Shown: in pieces, positions 29,990-35,283 of the stretch
Position numbering within the stretch: the first letter of the stretch is position 1
How the letters are laid out: the number at the start of each line of letters is the position of its first letter
DNA from: Fimbriimonadaceae bacterium
Lineage (GTDB): Bacteria; Armatimonadota; Fimbriimonadia; Fimbriimonadales; Fimbriimonadaceae
Length of the DNA stretch: 64,000 nucleotides
Direction: 5' to 3'
Assembly (NCBI GenBank): GCA_022843485.1
Contig: JALHNM010000002.1
Location: forward strand, 282,238 to 346,237
The notes under the pieces: model-generated
Seen by the model: only the letters and a program-made list of their open reading frames with translations
What the model was told of the DNA's origin: nothing
Database searches by the model: none
Made by a program: the position numbers and the translations under genes

Positions 29990-29996
29990 CCTCGTG

Positions 29997-30848
29997 ATGG
30001 TACGGATCGGTCTCCCGAAGGGGCGGATTTGGGCCGGCGTCTCGCAGCTCCTGCGCGACGCCGGGATCGGATTGGACGTCGGTGCTCGCGAGTACCGGCC
30101 GGCCTTCGCGCTCGACGGGTTCGAGGCGAAGATCCAGAAGCCGCAGAACATCATCGAGATGCTCCACTCGGGCACGCGCGACGCAGGGTTCGCCGGGGCG
30201 GACTGGGTCATGGAGCTCGGGGCGGACCTGGTCGAACTGCTCGACACCGGCCTCGACGGAGTGCGCCTCGTCGCCGCCGCTCCGGAAGCGCTTGTGACCG
30301 AAGGCCGGCTCCCGTCTCGCCCCTTGGTCGTCGCGAGCGAGTACGAACGGCTCAGCTCCGATTGGATCGCCCGGCGCGGACAGGGCGACCGGTTCGTGCG
30401 GTCCTACGGCGCCACCGAGGTGTTCCCGCCCGAAGACGCGGACGTGGTCGTCGATATCACGGCCAGCGGTGCGACCCTCGCAGCGAACGGGCTCGCCATA
30501 GTCGAGACCCTCGCGACGAGTTCGACTCGGCTCTACGCAAGCCGGGCGGCCGCCGATGACCCCAGCAAACGCGAGCTGCTCGACCACCTCGCTGTACTCC
30601 TCCGCTCTGTGCTGGACGCCCGCCGTAGGGTGATGCTCGAGTTGAACGTGGGGCGCGAGTGCCTCGCCGCGGTGATCGCCGAACTCCCCGCGATGCGCCA
30701 CCCCACCGTCGCCGAGCTCCATGGGGGCCATGGGTACGCGGTCAAGGCGGCCGTCCCCAAGCCGGAACTCGCCGCGCTCATCGGTCGGCTCAAGGCGGCG
30801 GGCGGGTCGGACATCGTCGTCACCGAAATGCGGCAGGTGGTGCCCTGA
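29997..30848 (+). CDS. hisG: ATP phosphoribosyltransferase, long form
   Basis: 283 residues, the long HisG type with a C-terminal regulatory ACT-like domain, so no HisZ partner is needed. Signatures are RIGLPKGRIW, the RPAFALDGFEAKIQKPQNI region, the PRPP loop VVDITASGATLAANGLAIVE, and the C-terminal EMRQVVP. It condenses ATP and PRPP in the first step of histidine synthesis and is normally feedback-inhibited by histidine. ATG at 29997 is preceded by TAGACT; GTG at 29994 is an alternative. First gene of a six-cistron operon; its TGA overlaps a CTG start of hisB. Confidence 0.95.
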   Translation: MVRIGLPKGRIWAGVSQLLRDAGIGLDVGAREYRPAFALDGFEAKIQKPQNIIEMLHSGTRDAGFAGADWVMELGADLVELLDTGLDGVRLVAAAPEALVTEGRLPSRPLVVASEYERLSSDWIARRGQGDRFVRSYGATEVFPPEDADVVVDITASGATLAANGLAIVETLATSSTRLYASRAAADDPSKRELLDHLAVLLRSVLDARRRVMLELNVGRECLAAVIAELPAMRHPTVAELHGGHGYAVKAAVPKPELAALIGRLKAAGGSDIVVTEMRQVVP

Positions 30849-31435
30849 GCGCCCCGCGCCGGGCGGAAGTCCACCGCCGAACGGGCGAGACCGACGTCCG
30901 AGTCACGCTCGTCCTCGACGGGAGCGGCGAGGTCGAGGCGACGACCGGGCTCGGGTTCTTCGACCACATGCTCCACGCGCTCCTCAAGCACGCCCGATTT
31001 GATGCCCAGGTGGTCGCCACGGGGGATCTGCACGTCGACGAGCACCACACCGTCGAGGACACCGCCCTCACCCTCGGAGCGGCCCTCGACCAAGCGCTCG
31101 GGGAGAGGCGAGGCATCACGCGGTTCGGCCACGCCTATGCGCCCCTCGACGAGGCCCTCGCGCGGGCGGTGGTCGACCTCAGCGGACGGCCGTTCGCCCA
31201 TATCGACCTAGGCCTGCGCCACGAACGCCAAGGCGAAGTCCTGAGCGAGAACCTCGCGCACTTCTTCCAGTCGCTCGCCGTGGCGGGGCGGATGGCGCTC
31301 CACCTCGACGTCCTCCGGGGCGAGAACGACCACCACCGCGTGGAGGCGGCCTACAAGGCGACAGCGCTGGCCCTTCGCGAAGCCGTCAGGCCGACGGGAA
31401 CGGACGATGTCCCCAGCACGAAGGGGGCGCTTTGA
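30845..31435 (+). CDS. hisB: Imidazoleglycerol-phosphate dehydratase, CTG start
   Basis: 196-residue HisB dehydratase domain (no phosphatase domain). Two metal-binding repeats are visible: GFFDHMLHALLKHARFD with DEHHTVEDTALTLG, and ENLAHFFQSLAVAG with ENDHHRVEAAYKATA. It removes water from imidazoleglycerol phosphate. The protein must begin at LSAPRRAEVHRRTGET; the only codon available is CTG at 30845, which overlaps the hisG stop as CTGA. The nearest in-frame ATG/GTG/TTG lies about 60 codons upstream, inside hisG. Confidence 0.93.
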   Translation: MSAPRRAEVHRRTGETDVRVTLVLDGSGEVEATTGLGFFDHMLHALLKHARFDAQVVATGDLHVDEHHTVEDTALTLGAALDQALGERRGITRFGHAYAPLDEALARAVVDLSGRPFAHIDLGLRHERQGEVLSENLAHFFQSLAVAGRMALHLDVLRGENDHHRVEAAYKATALALREAVRPTGTDDVPSTKGAL

Positions 31436-32037
31436 GCACGGTCGCGATCCTGACGACGGGCGTGGCGAACGTCGCGTCCGTGGCGGCCGCGTTCCACCGG
31501 CTCGGGACAGAACCGGTCACCGCCGAGACACCGGAGGCGGTCGAACGGGCGGATCGGCTCGTTGTCCCTGGGGTCGGGGCGTTCGGAGCGGCGATGGACC
31601 GCCTCCACGGCCTCGGCCTCGTCGCTCCCCTTCGAAAGCGGATCGAAGCCGGCCGCCCGACCCTTGCGATCTGCCTCGGGATGCAGATCCTGTTCGAGTC
31701 GAGCGAGGAGTCCCCCGGTTGCGAGGGCCTCGGGGTCGCGTCGGGGGTCGTCGGCGCGTTCCCGGGCGGGGTGCGGTCGCCCCATTTCGGCTGGAACCGA
31801 GTGCACCCTCGCCCCGGCCCGGGCACCATCGAACCGGGCCACTACTACTTCGCGAACAGCTTCCGGGTCGCCCATCACCCGGCGGGATGGGACGCGGCAT
31901 GGTGCGAGCACGGCGGGGCGTTCCTCGCGGCCGTCACACGGGGCGGAGTCTTGGCTTGCCAGTTCCACCCGGAGCTCTCCGGCACCCTGGGCCAGTCGCT
32001 CATCGGCGAATGGCTGGCGAGGTCCGACCAGTGGTGA
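31432..32037 (+). CDS. hisH: Imidazole glycerol phosphate synthase, glutaminase subunit
   Basis: 201-residue class I glutamine amidotransferase. The oxyanion segment is VVPGVGAFGAAMD, the nucleophile elbow AICLGMQILFESSEE (Cys), and the His-Glu pair is CQFHPELSG. It supplies ammonia to HisF. The TTG start overlaps the hisB stop as TTGA, and its TGA overlaps the GTG of hisF as GTGA. Confidence 0.95.
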   Translation: MSTVAILTTGVANVASVAAAFHRLGTEPVTAETPEAVERADRLVVPGVGAFGAAMDRLHGLGLVAPLRKRIEAGRPTLAICLGMQILFESSEESPGCEGLGVASGVVGAFPGGVRSPHFGWNRVHPRPGPGTIEPGHYYFANSFRVAHHPAGWDAAWCEHGGAFLAAVTRGGVLACQFHPELSGTLGQSLIGEWLARSDQW

Positions 32038-32783
32038 CCAAGCGCGTCATCCCCTGCCTCGACGTCGCCGAAGGGCGTGTGGTGAAGGGAGTCCGCTTTA
32101 CGTCCCTGCGCGACTGTGGCGACCCGGCTGCGTTGGCCGAGGAATACATGAACTCGGGCGCGGACGAGCTTGTCATGCTGGACGTCTCGGCCACGGATGA
32201 GGGCCGGGCGACGGCGCTGGAAACCGTGGCCGCGATCCGTGAGCGCCTCGCGATCCCGCTCACCGTCGGCGGCGGGGTCCGCAGCGTCTCGGACGCGGAG
32301 AGGCTGCTCGAAGCGGGTGCCGACAAGGTCAGCGTGAACTCGGCGGCCGTCGCAGACCCCGCGATCCTGACCGAGATCGCCGACCGCCTCGGACGCCAGT
32401 GCGCCGTCGTCGCGATCGACGCCAGAAAGTGCCACGACGGATGGACCGTGCTCGTCCGGTCCGGCAAGGACGACGCGCGCCGGGACGCGGTGGCCTTCGC
32501 CGTCCAAGCCGTCGAGGCAGGGGCGGGAGAGGTGCTGCTCACGAGTTGGGACCGCGACGGCACAGGAGAGGGCTACGACCTGGACCTGCTCCGAGCTGTG
32601 AGTCGTGCCGTCCACGTGCCCGTCATCGCCTCCGGCGGGGCCAAGGACGCCCGCCACATGGCCGAGGCGTTCCTCGCTGGGGCCGACGCCGTGCTGGCCG
32701 CGTCGATCTTTCACGACCGGGAGGCCCGGGTCTGGGACATCAAGGACGAACTCGCCGGGTTCGGGGTGACGGTGAGACTCTGA
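32034..32783 (+). CDS. hisF: Imidazole glycerol phosphate synthase, cyclase subunit
   Basis: 249-residue TIM barrel. The first catalytic Asp is in KRVIPCLDVAEGRVVKG, the second in VVAIDARKCHDGWTV; phosphate sites are TVGGGVRS and VIASGGAKDARH. With HisH it makes imidazoleglycerol phosphate and AICAR. GTG at 32034 overlaps the hisH stop (GTGA); a second GTG is one codon earlier. Its own stop overlaps the CTG start of the following fusion gene. Confidence 0.96.
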   Translation: MTKRVIPCLDVAEGRVVKGVRFTSLRDCGDPAALAEEYMNSGADELVMLDVSATDEGRATALETVAAIRERLAIPLTVGGGVRSVSDAERLLEAGADKVSVNSAAVADPAILTEIADRLGRQCAVVAIDARKCHDGWTVLVRSGKDDARRDAVAFAVQAVEAGAGEVLLTSWDRDGTGEGYDLDLLRAVSRAVHVPVIASGGAKDARHMAEAFLAGADAVLAASIFHDREARVWDIKDELAGFGVTVRL

Positions 32784-34048
32784 TCGTCCCCAGTATCGAC
32801 CTTCAGGCTGGCCAGGCCGTCCAGCTCGTCGGTGGGGCCGAGAAGGCGATCGACGGCGGTGACCCCTTCGCCTGGGCCGAGCGCTTCTCCGTCGCCGGCG
32901 AGATCGCGGTGATCGACCTCGACGCGGCCATGGGCCAAGGCGACAATAAGACTTTGGTCGAAGGGCTCGTCTCGCGGTTCGACTGCCGGGTCGGGGGAGG
33001 CGTTCGCGATCTCGACACCGCGCGAAAGTGGCTCGACCTCGGCGCGACCCAGGTCATCCTTGGCACCGCCGCCCAGCCCGAACTCCTCCGCCACCTTCCC
33101 CGAAACCGGGTGCAGGCCGCTCTGGACACCCGCCACGGCGAGGTCATGGCGGAGGGCTGGACGACCGGGACCGGCCGCGGCCTCTTCGAACGGGTCGCCG
33201 AGCTGAAGCCGTTCGTCGGCGGCTTTCTCGTCACCGTCATCGAGCGAGAAGGGCGGATGGAGGGCATCGACCTCGACTTCGTGCGTCGCGTCGTCGAGGC
33301 GGCCGACCCGGTGCGCGTCACGGTCGCGGGCGGGGTGACGTCGGCGTCGGAGGTCGCGGAGATCGATCGGCTGGGGGCCGACTGCCAGGTGGGGATGGCC
33401 CTCTACACCGGGAGGCTCAACCTCGGGGACGCGATCGCCGCGCCGCTCGTATCGGACCGGCCGGACGGGCTCTGGCCCACCGTGGTCTGCGACGAGCGGG
33501 GCGTGGCCCTCGGGCTCGTCTATTCGAGCGCCGAGAGTCTGCGGGCCGCGGTGGCGACGCGTAGAGGCGTCTATCACTCGCGCAAGCGGGGGCTGTGGGT
33601 CAAAGGCGAGTCGAGCGGGGCAAGCCAGCGGCTCCTGCGGATCGGCCTGGATTGCGACCGCGACGCCCTCCGGTTCACCGTCCGGCAAGAGGGAGCTGGG
33701 TTCTGCCACCTTGGCACCGCATCGTGCTGGGGCGCGGCGAGCGGCCTCGACGCCCTCGAACGGACCGTCCGCTCCCGTCTTGCGAGCCCGGAGGAGGCCT
33801 CCTACGTGAGCCGACTCCTCGGAGACCCGGCCCTGCTCCGCGCGAAACTGGCCGAGGAAGCGGGCGAACTCTCTGAGGCTCGCGAGCCCGGCCACGTAGC
33901 CGCGGAGGCGGCGGACTTGGCTTTCTTCGCGACCGTAGCGTTGGCCCGTGCCGGGAGTCGTTGGTCTGATGCCGAGGCTGTGCTCGACCGCCGTGCTCGG
34001 AAGCTGACGAGACGCCCCGGGGACGCGAAGCCGGAGGCAGGGACATGA
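32780..34048 (+). CDS. hisA: HisA-HisI-HisE trifunctional fusion, CTG start
   Basis: 422 residues joining three consecutive pathway enzymes. Residues 1-230 are HisA isomerase: VPSIDLQAG (catalytic Asp), RVGGGVRDLDTA, ALDTRHGEVMAEGW and TVAGGVTSASEV. Residues about 232-325 are HisI cyclohydrolase: GVYHSRKRGLWVKGESSG, LDCDRDAL and the zinc-site GFCHLGTASCWG. Residues about 335-415 are HisE pyrophosphohydrolase: AKLAEEAGELSEA and HVAAEAADLAFFATVAL. HisI-HisE fusion is common; HisA in front of it is unusual to my knowledge. The start must precede LIVPSIDL and only CTG at 32780 fits, overlapping hisF as CTGA; the nearest ATG/GTG/TTG is over 100 codons upstream. Confidence 0.92.
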   Translation: MIVPSIDLQAGQAVQLVGGAEKAIDGGDPFAWAERFSVAGEIAVIDLDAAMGQGDNKTLVEGLVSRFDCRVGGGVRDLDTARKWLDLGATQVILGTAAQPELLRHLPRNRVQAALDTRHGEVMAEGWTTGTGRGLFERVAELKPFVGGFLVTVIEREGRMEGIDLDFVRRVVEAADPVRVTVAGGVTSASEVAEIDRLGADCQVGMALYTGRLNLGDAIAAPLVSDRPDGLWPTVVCDERGVALGLVYSSAESLRAAVATRRGVYHSRKRGLWVKGESSGASQRLLRIGLDCDRDALRFTVRQEGAGFCHLGTASCWGAASGLDALERTVRSRLASPEEASYVSRLLGDPALLRAKLAEEAGELSEAREPGHVAAEAADLAFFATVALARAGSRWSDAEAVLDRRARKLTRRPGDAKPEAGT

Positions 34049-35283
34049 GGCTGCGCCGCATCGAACCCTCCCAGGTCGCGTCCCAGAACCGCCCGGCCGT
34101 ACCAAGCGAGGTCCTCTCGGCCTCAGCACAGATCGTCGAGGACGTTCGTGATCGGGGCGAGGCCGCGCTCAGGGAACACGCGGAGCGGCTTGGCGACCTC
34201 GAGCCAGGGGCCCCCCTAACCCTCTCGCCCACCGAGGTGGCCGAACGGGCGACGATCCTCCCACCCTCCGACCGCGAGGTCATCGACCGGGTCGCAGCCC
34301 GCGTCCGGGAGTTCGCCTCCGCCCAACGACGGTCCCTGGCCGACCTCGACGTGGCCGTCTTGGGGGGAAGGGCGGGCCATCGGGTCGCCCCGGTCGAGTC
34401 GGCCGGGTGCTATGCCCCCGGCGGGCGTTACCCGCTCCCGAGCAGCGCCCTCATGACCGCCGTAACGGCCCGAGCCGCGGGCGTCGAGACGGTGTGGCTC
34501 GCGTCCCCCCGCCCAACGGCCGCCACCCTCGCCGCCGCCCATGCCGCCGCGGTCGACGGGGTCCTGTGTGTCGGGGGTGCTCAGGCGATCGCCGCGCTCG
34601 CCTACGGGGCGGGGCCCGTTCCCGCCTGCGCGGCCGTGGTCGGGCCAGGAAACGTATGGGTCACCGCCGCCAAGCGCCTCGTGAACGGGGACGTGGCCAT
34701 CGACATGCTCGCGGGCCCGAGCGAACTGGTCGTCATCGCCGACGAGACCGCCAACCCCGGGACAGTGGCGGCCGACCTCCTTGCCCAAGCCGAGCACGAC
34801 ACCGAGGCTCGGCCCATCCTGCTCACCACGCACGCCCCTCTTCAGGACGAGGTCGAGCGAGAGCTGGACTTCCAACTCGCGAGCCTCCCGACCCGGGCGA
34901 CGGCCGAGGCCGCCCTCGCCAACGGCTTCAGCGTGCTCTGCGTCGACCTCGACCAGGCCGCAGCGCTCAGCGACCTCATAGCCCCCGAGCACCTTCAGCT
35001 CTCTACCCGAGACCCTCGCCGCTTGCGTGTCCGCCAATACGGGGGGCTCTTCGTCGGCGAGACGAGCGCGGAGGTGATGGGCGACTACGGCGCGGGGCCG
35101 AACCACACGCTCCCAACTGGCGGCACCGCCCGGACGACCGCGGGCCTCTCGGTGCTCACGTTCCTCCGGGCGCAGACTTGGCTCGAACTGAGCGACCCTT
35201 CGGCCCTGATCGCCGACACCGCCGCCCTTGCCCGAATGGAAGGCCTTGAGGCCCACGCCCGAGCCGCAGAACGACGGCGCTAA
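34045..35283 (+). CDS. hisD: Histidinol dehydrogenase
   Basis: 412-residue HisD, which oxidises histidinol to histidine with two NAD+. Hallmarks are VAPVESAGCYAPGGRYPLPSS, VCVGGAQAIAALAYGAG, MLAGPSELVVIADE, the zinc/catalytic LLAQAEHDTEA, and DYGAGPNHTLPTGGTAR. ATG start overlaps the preceding stop as ATGA. Last gene of the operon; its TAA shares CTAA with the stop of the convergent ABC-F gene. hisC and a histidinol phosphatase gene are not in the window. Confidence 0.96.
   Translation: MRLRRIEPSQVASQNRPAVPSEVLSASAQIVEDVRDRGEAALREHAERLGDLEPGAPLTLSPTEVAERATILPPSDREVIDRVAARVREFASAQRRSLADLDVAVLGGRAGHRVAPVESAGCYAPGGRYPLPSSALMTAVTARAAGVETVWLASPRPTAATLAAAHAAAVDGVLCVGGAQAIAALAYGAGPVPACAAVVGPGNVWVTAAKRLVNGDVAIDMLAGPSELVVIADETANPGTVAADLLAQAEHDTEARPILLTTHAPLQDEVERELDFQLASLPTRATAEAALANGFSVLCVDLDQAAALSDLIAPEHLQLSTRDPRRLRVRQYGGLFVGETSAEVMGDYGAGPNHTLPTGGTARTTAGLSVLTFLRAQTWLELSDPSALIADTAALARMEGLEAHARAAERRR

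Follow-up and report, generated by a model that had tools for sequence, protein, structure and literature searches.

The histidine biosynthesis genes of a Fimbriimonadaceae bacterium raise the question whether the first base of a start codon still matters once that codon overlaps the stop codon of the gene before it. The genes lie in a window of 64,000 nucleotides, i.e. the whole stretch of DNA that was analysed (contig JALHNM010000002.1, positions 282,238 to 346,237), which comes from a draft assembly of 2.96 Mb in 20 contigs that is 98.8% complete (G000 below). A first-pass annotation, made from the letters of this window, had described a his operon with five 4-nt NTGA overlaps and had proposed that reinitiation makes the first base unimportant, with only the TGA being constrained. 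The histidine operon is real: six genes follow each other in one direction in the order hisG–hisB–hisH–hisF–hisA-hisI-hisE fusion–hisD, and the expected Pfam domains in all six proteins bear out the identities originally given to them. The gene named hisA does encode a HisA domain, yet its full product is a HisA–HisI–HisE fusion of 422 residues. In window coordinates, the parts of the operon are the following.

29997–30848, + strand: hisG, in its long form, which carries a HisG_C domain; starts with ATG at 29997, with a GTG in frame at 29994; PF01634 and PF08029
30835–30840, + strand: Shine–Dalgarno-like AGGTGG ahead of the hisB CTG, putative, from sequence
30845–31435, + strand: hisB (IGP dehydratase); begins with CTG, overlapping the hisG stop as CTGA; PF00475 at residues 34–177
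31432–32037, + strand: hisH, TTG start in a TTGA overlap with the hisB stop; PF00117
32031–32783, + strand: hisF, start at GTG 32031 (7-nt overlap, likelier) or GTG 32034 (4-nt overlap); PF00977
32771–32776, + strand: Shine–Dalgarno-like GGTGAG within hisF, ahead of the hisA CTG, putative, from sequence
32780–34048, + strand: hisA-hisI-hisE fusion of 422 aa; begins with CTG, overlapping the hisF stop as CTGA; PF00977, PF01502 and PF01503
34045–35283, + strand: hisD, ATG start in an ATGA overlap; PF00815

The NTGA letters are found at all five junctions, and at four of these the stop and start codons cleanly share their bases on the same strand in a 4-nt overlap: CTGA at 30845 (hisG/hisB), TTGA at 31432 (hisB/hisH), CTGA at 32780 (hisF/hisA) and ATGA at 34045 (hisA/hisD). 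At hisH/hisF the overlap is ambiguous between 4 and 7 nt, with the GTGA at 32034 being part of GTGGTGA; a GTG lies in frame at 32031, one codon before it, and an ATG at 32010, eight codons before it. Relatives usually have a 7-nt overlap here, ATGCTGA, which yields the customary HisF N terminus: CTGA stands at this position in 43 loci, and because in 32 of them the preceding codon is a canonical start (ATG in 25, GTG in six, TTG in one), hisF in G000 probably begins at the first GTG as well. If so, four rather than five junctions are clean 4-nt overlaps.

Two of these four overlaps begin with C. The nearest in-frame canonical starts (ATG, GTG or TTG) of hisB are a GTG at −62 and an ATG at +41 codons, and those of hisA a TTG at −78 and a GTG at +43 codons, with none in between. 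The start-free spans of 60 (hisB) and more than 100 codons (hisA) claimed in the first-pass annotation thus hold upstream of hisB, but neither downstream of hisB nor on either side of hisA. Since the NCBIfam models align from residues 3–7 of HisB and from residues 1–4 of HisA, any later start would trim conserved sequence. Relatives with the same gene order add to this picture (G008, G044 and G046 were the first three found; G008, a member of the same family, is 66–75% identical to G000 for five of the proteins and 53% for HisH). In all three, hisF/hisA reads GTGA at the very codon that is CTG in G000, and at hisG/hisB G008 has TTGA, its hisB being two codons shorter and starting with TTG in the same overlap. 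Comparing the same junctions in relatives, a check proposed at the outset, thus returned canonical starts at both CTG sites in G008, and because of these TTG and GTG codons the CTGs of G000 can be regarded as single-base relatives of normal starts. The earlier contention that the N termini of HisB and HisA are forced to CTG is supported, by the lack of alternatives as well as by the homologues, in the sense of a start at or very near this codon. On sequence grounds CTG is a well-supported start for both hisB and hisA, and we infer that initiation takes place on it.

Whether C is simply one of four acceptable letters can be asked across phyla. When named genomes were scanned with the fusion protein as query, 80 loci were kept (L053–L132, including G008 and G046), which by their record titles belong to Myxococcota, Alphaproteobacteria, Planctomycetota, Sumerlaeota and others; together with G000 and G044 this makes 82 loci. 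The hisF and hisA genes are adjacent in 75 of them (six pairs were too far apart and one locus had no matches), and 72 of these 75 junctions, as well as all eight in further loci of the family, have kept the 4-nt TGA overlap, i.e. 80 of 83. Its first base is A in 53, G in 25 (78 purines in all), T in one and C in one, the latter being G000 itself; the other 79 overlaps accordingly start with ATG (53), GTG (25) or TTG (1). In 68 overlaps the final amino acid of HisF is encoded by a four-fold degenerate codon, which leaves the first base free as far as HisF is concerned. The codon usage of each locus would predict 30.0 C, 24.6 G, 7.4 T and 6.0 A at these sites; observed were one C, 24 G, one T and 42 A (P(C≤1) = 1.2e-17, with loci treated as independent, although they are not fully so). 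At the hisF/hisA overlap there is strong selection on the first base for its role in the start codon, with G000 as the exception, which directly contradicts the proposal that only the TGA is constrained. Shine–Dalgarno-like words also recur at these 80 junctions (GAGGTG in 24, a weaker one in 50).

The other junctions differ in conservation. At hisB/hisH, 58 of 70 adjacent junctions retain the overlap, with GTGA in 27, ATGA in 17, CTGA in eight, TTGA in six and other sequences in 12, and in all eight CTGA cases the next codon is ATG. Similarly, six of eight CTGA cases at the hisD junction have an ATG within four codons; the hisD CTGA of L116 and L130 has no ATG, GTG or TTG within 15 codons downstream and a GTG five codons upstream. 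The hisG/hisB overlap is not conserved, being kept in just eight of 23 adjacent junctions.

C is disfavoured elsewhere in G000 as well. A screen of 864 kb gave 140 same-strand gene pairs in which the second gene lies in the frame of a TGA overlap; the TGA is preceded by G in 68, A in 32, C in 31 and T in nine cases. Before the stop of all 388 TGA-ended genes, the counts are C 173, G 125, T 47 and A 43. C is thus depleted in the overlap frame (31/140 versus 173/388; Fisher p 2.7e-6), which again is at odds with a constraint on the TGA alone. Another ATG, GTG or TTG is present between −10 and +12 codons in 21 of the 31 C cases. Of the other ten, three were kept (hisB, hisA and murB), two were rejected and five are candidates. 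The rejected ones are a 226-aa gene at C2:272202, where an ATG 12 codons upstream opens a conserved MADD- N terminus, and a long gene at C1:239022 with an ATG at +16. A CTG at C1:237662 was also rejected, with an ATG at +9, where transporter-like sequence begins; a LAGLIDADG-like gene lies at C1:238660.

For murB, G001, a genome of the same genus, has ATGA in the column where G000 has its CTGA overlap, and in ten further loci out of 25 a 4-nt overlap with a canonical start falls at columns 0 to +6. An alternative GTG lies at +14, and TIGR00179 aligns only from residue 17 onward; a CTG start of murB appears very likely. A further CTGA overlap, at C1:106084, opens a presumably DUF554-like gene (NCBIfam gave no match). 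G001 has TTG at the same column, but since the starts of relatives vary and another CTG at +6 and a GTG at +12 are at hand, this CTG start is only probable.

The selB gene, which emerged from a screen for genes lacking a canonical start close to where the coding signal sets in, takes CTG starts out of the overlap context altogether. Its CTG directly follows an in-frame TAG, after AAAGGGGG, so that a TGA overlap is no precondition for starting with CTG. Among 22 loci, the start column holds ATG in 14, GTG in two and TTG in one, i.e. 17, and four more have ATG within two codons. The next canonical start of G000 selB lies 37 codons downstream, inside the GTPase domain, and the product matches TIGR00475 well above cut-off. 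The upstream gene ends with this TAG in the same frame, adjoining the CTG (L176:16985-16990; G000:C1:276985-276990), and a read-through fusion of the two is possible from the reading frame. In G001, mltG (TIGR00247) begins with a CTGA overlap and has no ATG, GTG or TTG upstream to the stop, the next one lying more than 30 codons downstream; the habit of using CTG may therefore belong to the genus. At this site (L345–L356, L213:286; G001:C1:140286) the upstream frame is open for 187 codons, and the G000 ortholog has an ATG near by.

How unusual is this number of CTG starts? CUG accounts for 0.024% of bacterial starts and has 0.86% of AUG activity in E. coli, as given in PMC11497404, where the reason for its rarity, with other first-position mismatches being tolerated, is called unclear. 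Switches to CUG occur at 3.2e-5 per AUG start (2/61,358), 2e-4 per GUG and 4e-4 per UUG (PMC5622118), and selections in mycobacteria, as reported in PMC4633059, did not enrich CTG. Four CTG starts among 779 scored G000 genes compare with 0.19 expected at 0.024% (P(≥4) 4.4e-5). Because the his genes had prompted the search, the probability was also computed for murB and selB alone and is 0.015; the true CTG background may exceed this baseline, however, since the underlying annotation rarely allows CTG. A census of orthologs is a fairer test than such an annotation-bound baseline. CTG at the partner's start column was found in 1/222 genes for G000 versus G001 (selB), in 1/222 for G001 versus G000 (a candidate) and in 0/77 and 0/40 for G008, with the hisA match being flagged at a wrong column. 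With partner starts that are unique, G000 had one CTG in 78 pairs plus three other non-start codons, and G001 one CTG in 99 plus four others, the G001 CTG looking spurious. This census, small and of low power, revealed no excess of CTG starts in G000 over its congener (1/222 versus 1/222). Among the junctions screened in G008 (75 pairs, 415 kb) and G001 (46 pairs, 400 kb), none had a convincing start for which CTG was the only choice; these misses carry little weight because this screen also overlooked the mltG case. The screen for genes without a canonical start near the coding onset flagged 53/740 in G000, 17/315 in G008 and 17/323 in G001, many of them clear overshoots.

We consider it likely that the his genes form a compact, translationally coupled operon in which both hisB and hisA have switched their start to CTG, a codon that this lineage seems to tolerate as an occasional start. 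Following this reading, a compact and horizontally spread operon would have its genes coupled via short stop–start overlaps, and one base each would have changed at the two starts where G008 has TTG and GTG. A ribosome finishing hisG or hisF, or a fresh 30S subunit placed by the Shine–Dalgarno-like stretch, would then initiate on CTG, which would presumably be read by the ordinary initiator tRNA, though less well than GTG, and give fMet as the first residue. Selection would normally keep C out, but here CTG would be accepted now and then as a fourth NTG start, at TGA overlaps as well as away from them. The overlaps together with AGGTGG ahead of hisB and GGTGAG ahead of hisA fit ordinary termination–reinitiation or coupled initiation. 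The positions and conservation of the overlaps, the first-base bias and the homologous start positions can be read directly from the sequences, whereas coupling, efficiency and the fMet start are inferred. A more far-reaching version, proposed tentatively, is that start discrimination is relaxed in the entire genus, which would use CTG regularly, though at low frequency, as a fourth NTG start with or without overlap (murB, hisA, hisB and selB, with mltG in the congener). No lead to a cause came from IF3, where a comparison of 13 genomes sets G000 apart from 10 or more of the 12 others at three columns, or from an altered initiator tRNA, with three CAT tRNAs carrying the GGG/CCC stem.

Could the CTGs, alternatively, serve as weak, IF3-repressed starts that lower or regulate the output of HisB and HisA, like the GTC start of sigR in Streptomyces? 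Rare starts can indeed be regulatory (PMC5472188) and CUG is weak in E. coli (PMC11497404), but hisB, hisA, selB and murB make up no regulatory set, and a CTG that is unique among 80 hisF/hisA overlaps is no conserved control element, which makes this explanation unlikely. Somewhat less likely still is a start at another codon. The second codon of hisA is ATC, itself a rare start, murB has its GTG at +14, and the TAG before selB, being in frame with it, might be read through; the ATG, GTG or TTG codons of the orthologs fall on the CTG codon itself, however, and hisB has no near substitute.

That reinitiation renders the first base irrelevant would agree with its variation where TGA is maintained, with G, A, C or T at hisB/hisH and A, G, T or C at hisF/hisA. 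As a general rule, however, this idea is already contradicted by the near absence of C and the abundance of A (one against 30.0 and 42 against 6.0 expected), where HisF would have borne no cost, by the ATG codons that accompany CTGA at hisB/hisH (8/8) and mostly also at hisD (6/8), and by selB having CTG without an overlap, so that we regard it as quite improbable for G000 too. Sequencing or assembly errors masking normal starts seem least probable of all: this is a 20-contig draft and the single available assembly of its species, but the frames are intact on both sides, and several unrelated starts on two contigs would each have had to suffer a separate single-base error at their first position. 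Tolerance of CTG as an occasional start in a coupled operon remains the reading we prefer.

The operon has two further peculiarities. In the fusion, HisA is joined in one frame in front of HisI–HisE, with HisA, PRA-CH and PRA-PH domains. It is widespread, occurring in the 80 loci in several phyla according to record titles, and there the alignment runs from residue 1 to at least residue 399 of 422, the query having been the fusion itself. Within the family, it was found in ten of 85 genomes at E≤1e-60, and the same search did not find it in the congener G001. Being patchy in the family yet present in distant phyla, the operon suggests horizontal spread. G000 also has a second, diverged HisB-like gene with an ATG start (L002:1390-1992; G000:C2:30657-31259), in which FFDHML has changed to FFDELL, HHTVED to HHRVIE and NDHHRVE to SDQHVCE, in regions that we take to be the metal motifs of HisB. 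Two full-length HisB matches were seen in six of 61 genomes, and in G016, G003, G021 and G025 a diverged single copy is the only one; the diverged HisB is possibly a non-catalytic IGPD paralog kept in the family. Two relatives, L033 (G006) and L037 (G012), differ in their his order, hisIE-hisG-hisD-hisB-hisH-hisF-hisA, and have a diverged second HisB beside it.

Compared with known systems, the geometry of the his junctions, the Shine–Dalgarno-like stretch in the upstream gene and the arrangement of genes of one pathway in a row resemble the 4-nt NTGA overlaps that represent the commonest spacing (PMC12548453) and have been tied to termination–reinitiation (Huber et al. 2019, PMC6728339; review PMC12548453). 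In contrast to these, two junctions here have C as the first base with no other start near by, and coupling is putative. Like the bacterial CUG starts described in PMC11497404 and PMC5622118, these CTGs are reached by a single-base change, but unlike a codon reported at 0.024%, several occur in one genome (hisA, hisB, selB and very likely murB). With the GTC of sigR and the ATT/ATC of infC (PMC5472188) they share being missed by normal annotation; those starts are described as regulated, however, whereas neither conservation nor a regulatory logic can be seen in the CTGs of G000. The fusion resembles known his fusions in joining HisI and HisE, but HisA ahead of HisIE is not among the five listed in PMC1963479 (hisA/hisF, hisIE, hisHF, hisNB and hisIED). 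Open-licence full texts searched by us held no report of CTG starts in Fimbriimonadaceae or of a HisA–HisIE fusion.

Overall, hisF/hisA amounts to a natural experiment on the rarity of CUG starts. Its 4-nt overlap has been kept across phyla, and the upstream protein usually places no constraint on the first base, so that the prevalence of A, followed by G, and the near absence of C and T are a direct readout of start-codon selection. One lineage breaks this rule, and does so in at least two genes, which makes it possible to test outside E. coli how far CUG initiation can go. Start callers limited to ATG, GTG and TTG misplace or truncate real genes. If start discrimination were indeed relaxed in this genus, it would be so with an ordinary-looking initiator tRNA anticodon and IF3, and standard gene callers would hide its CTG starts from view.
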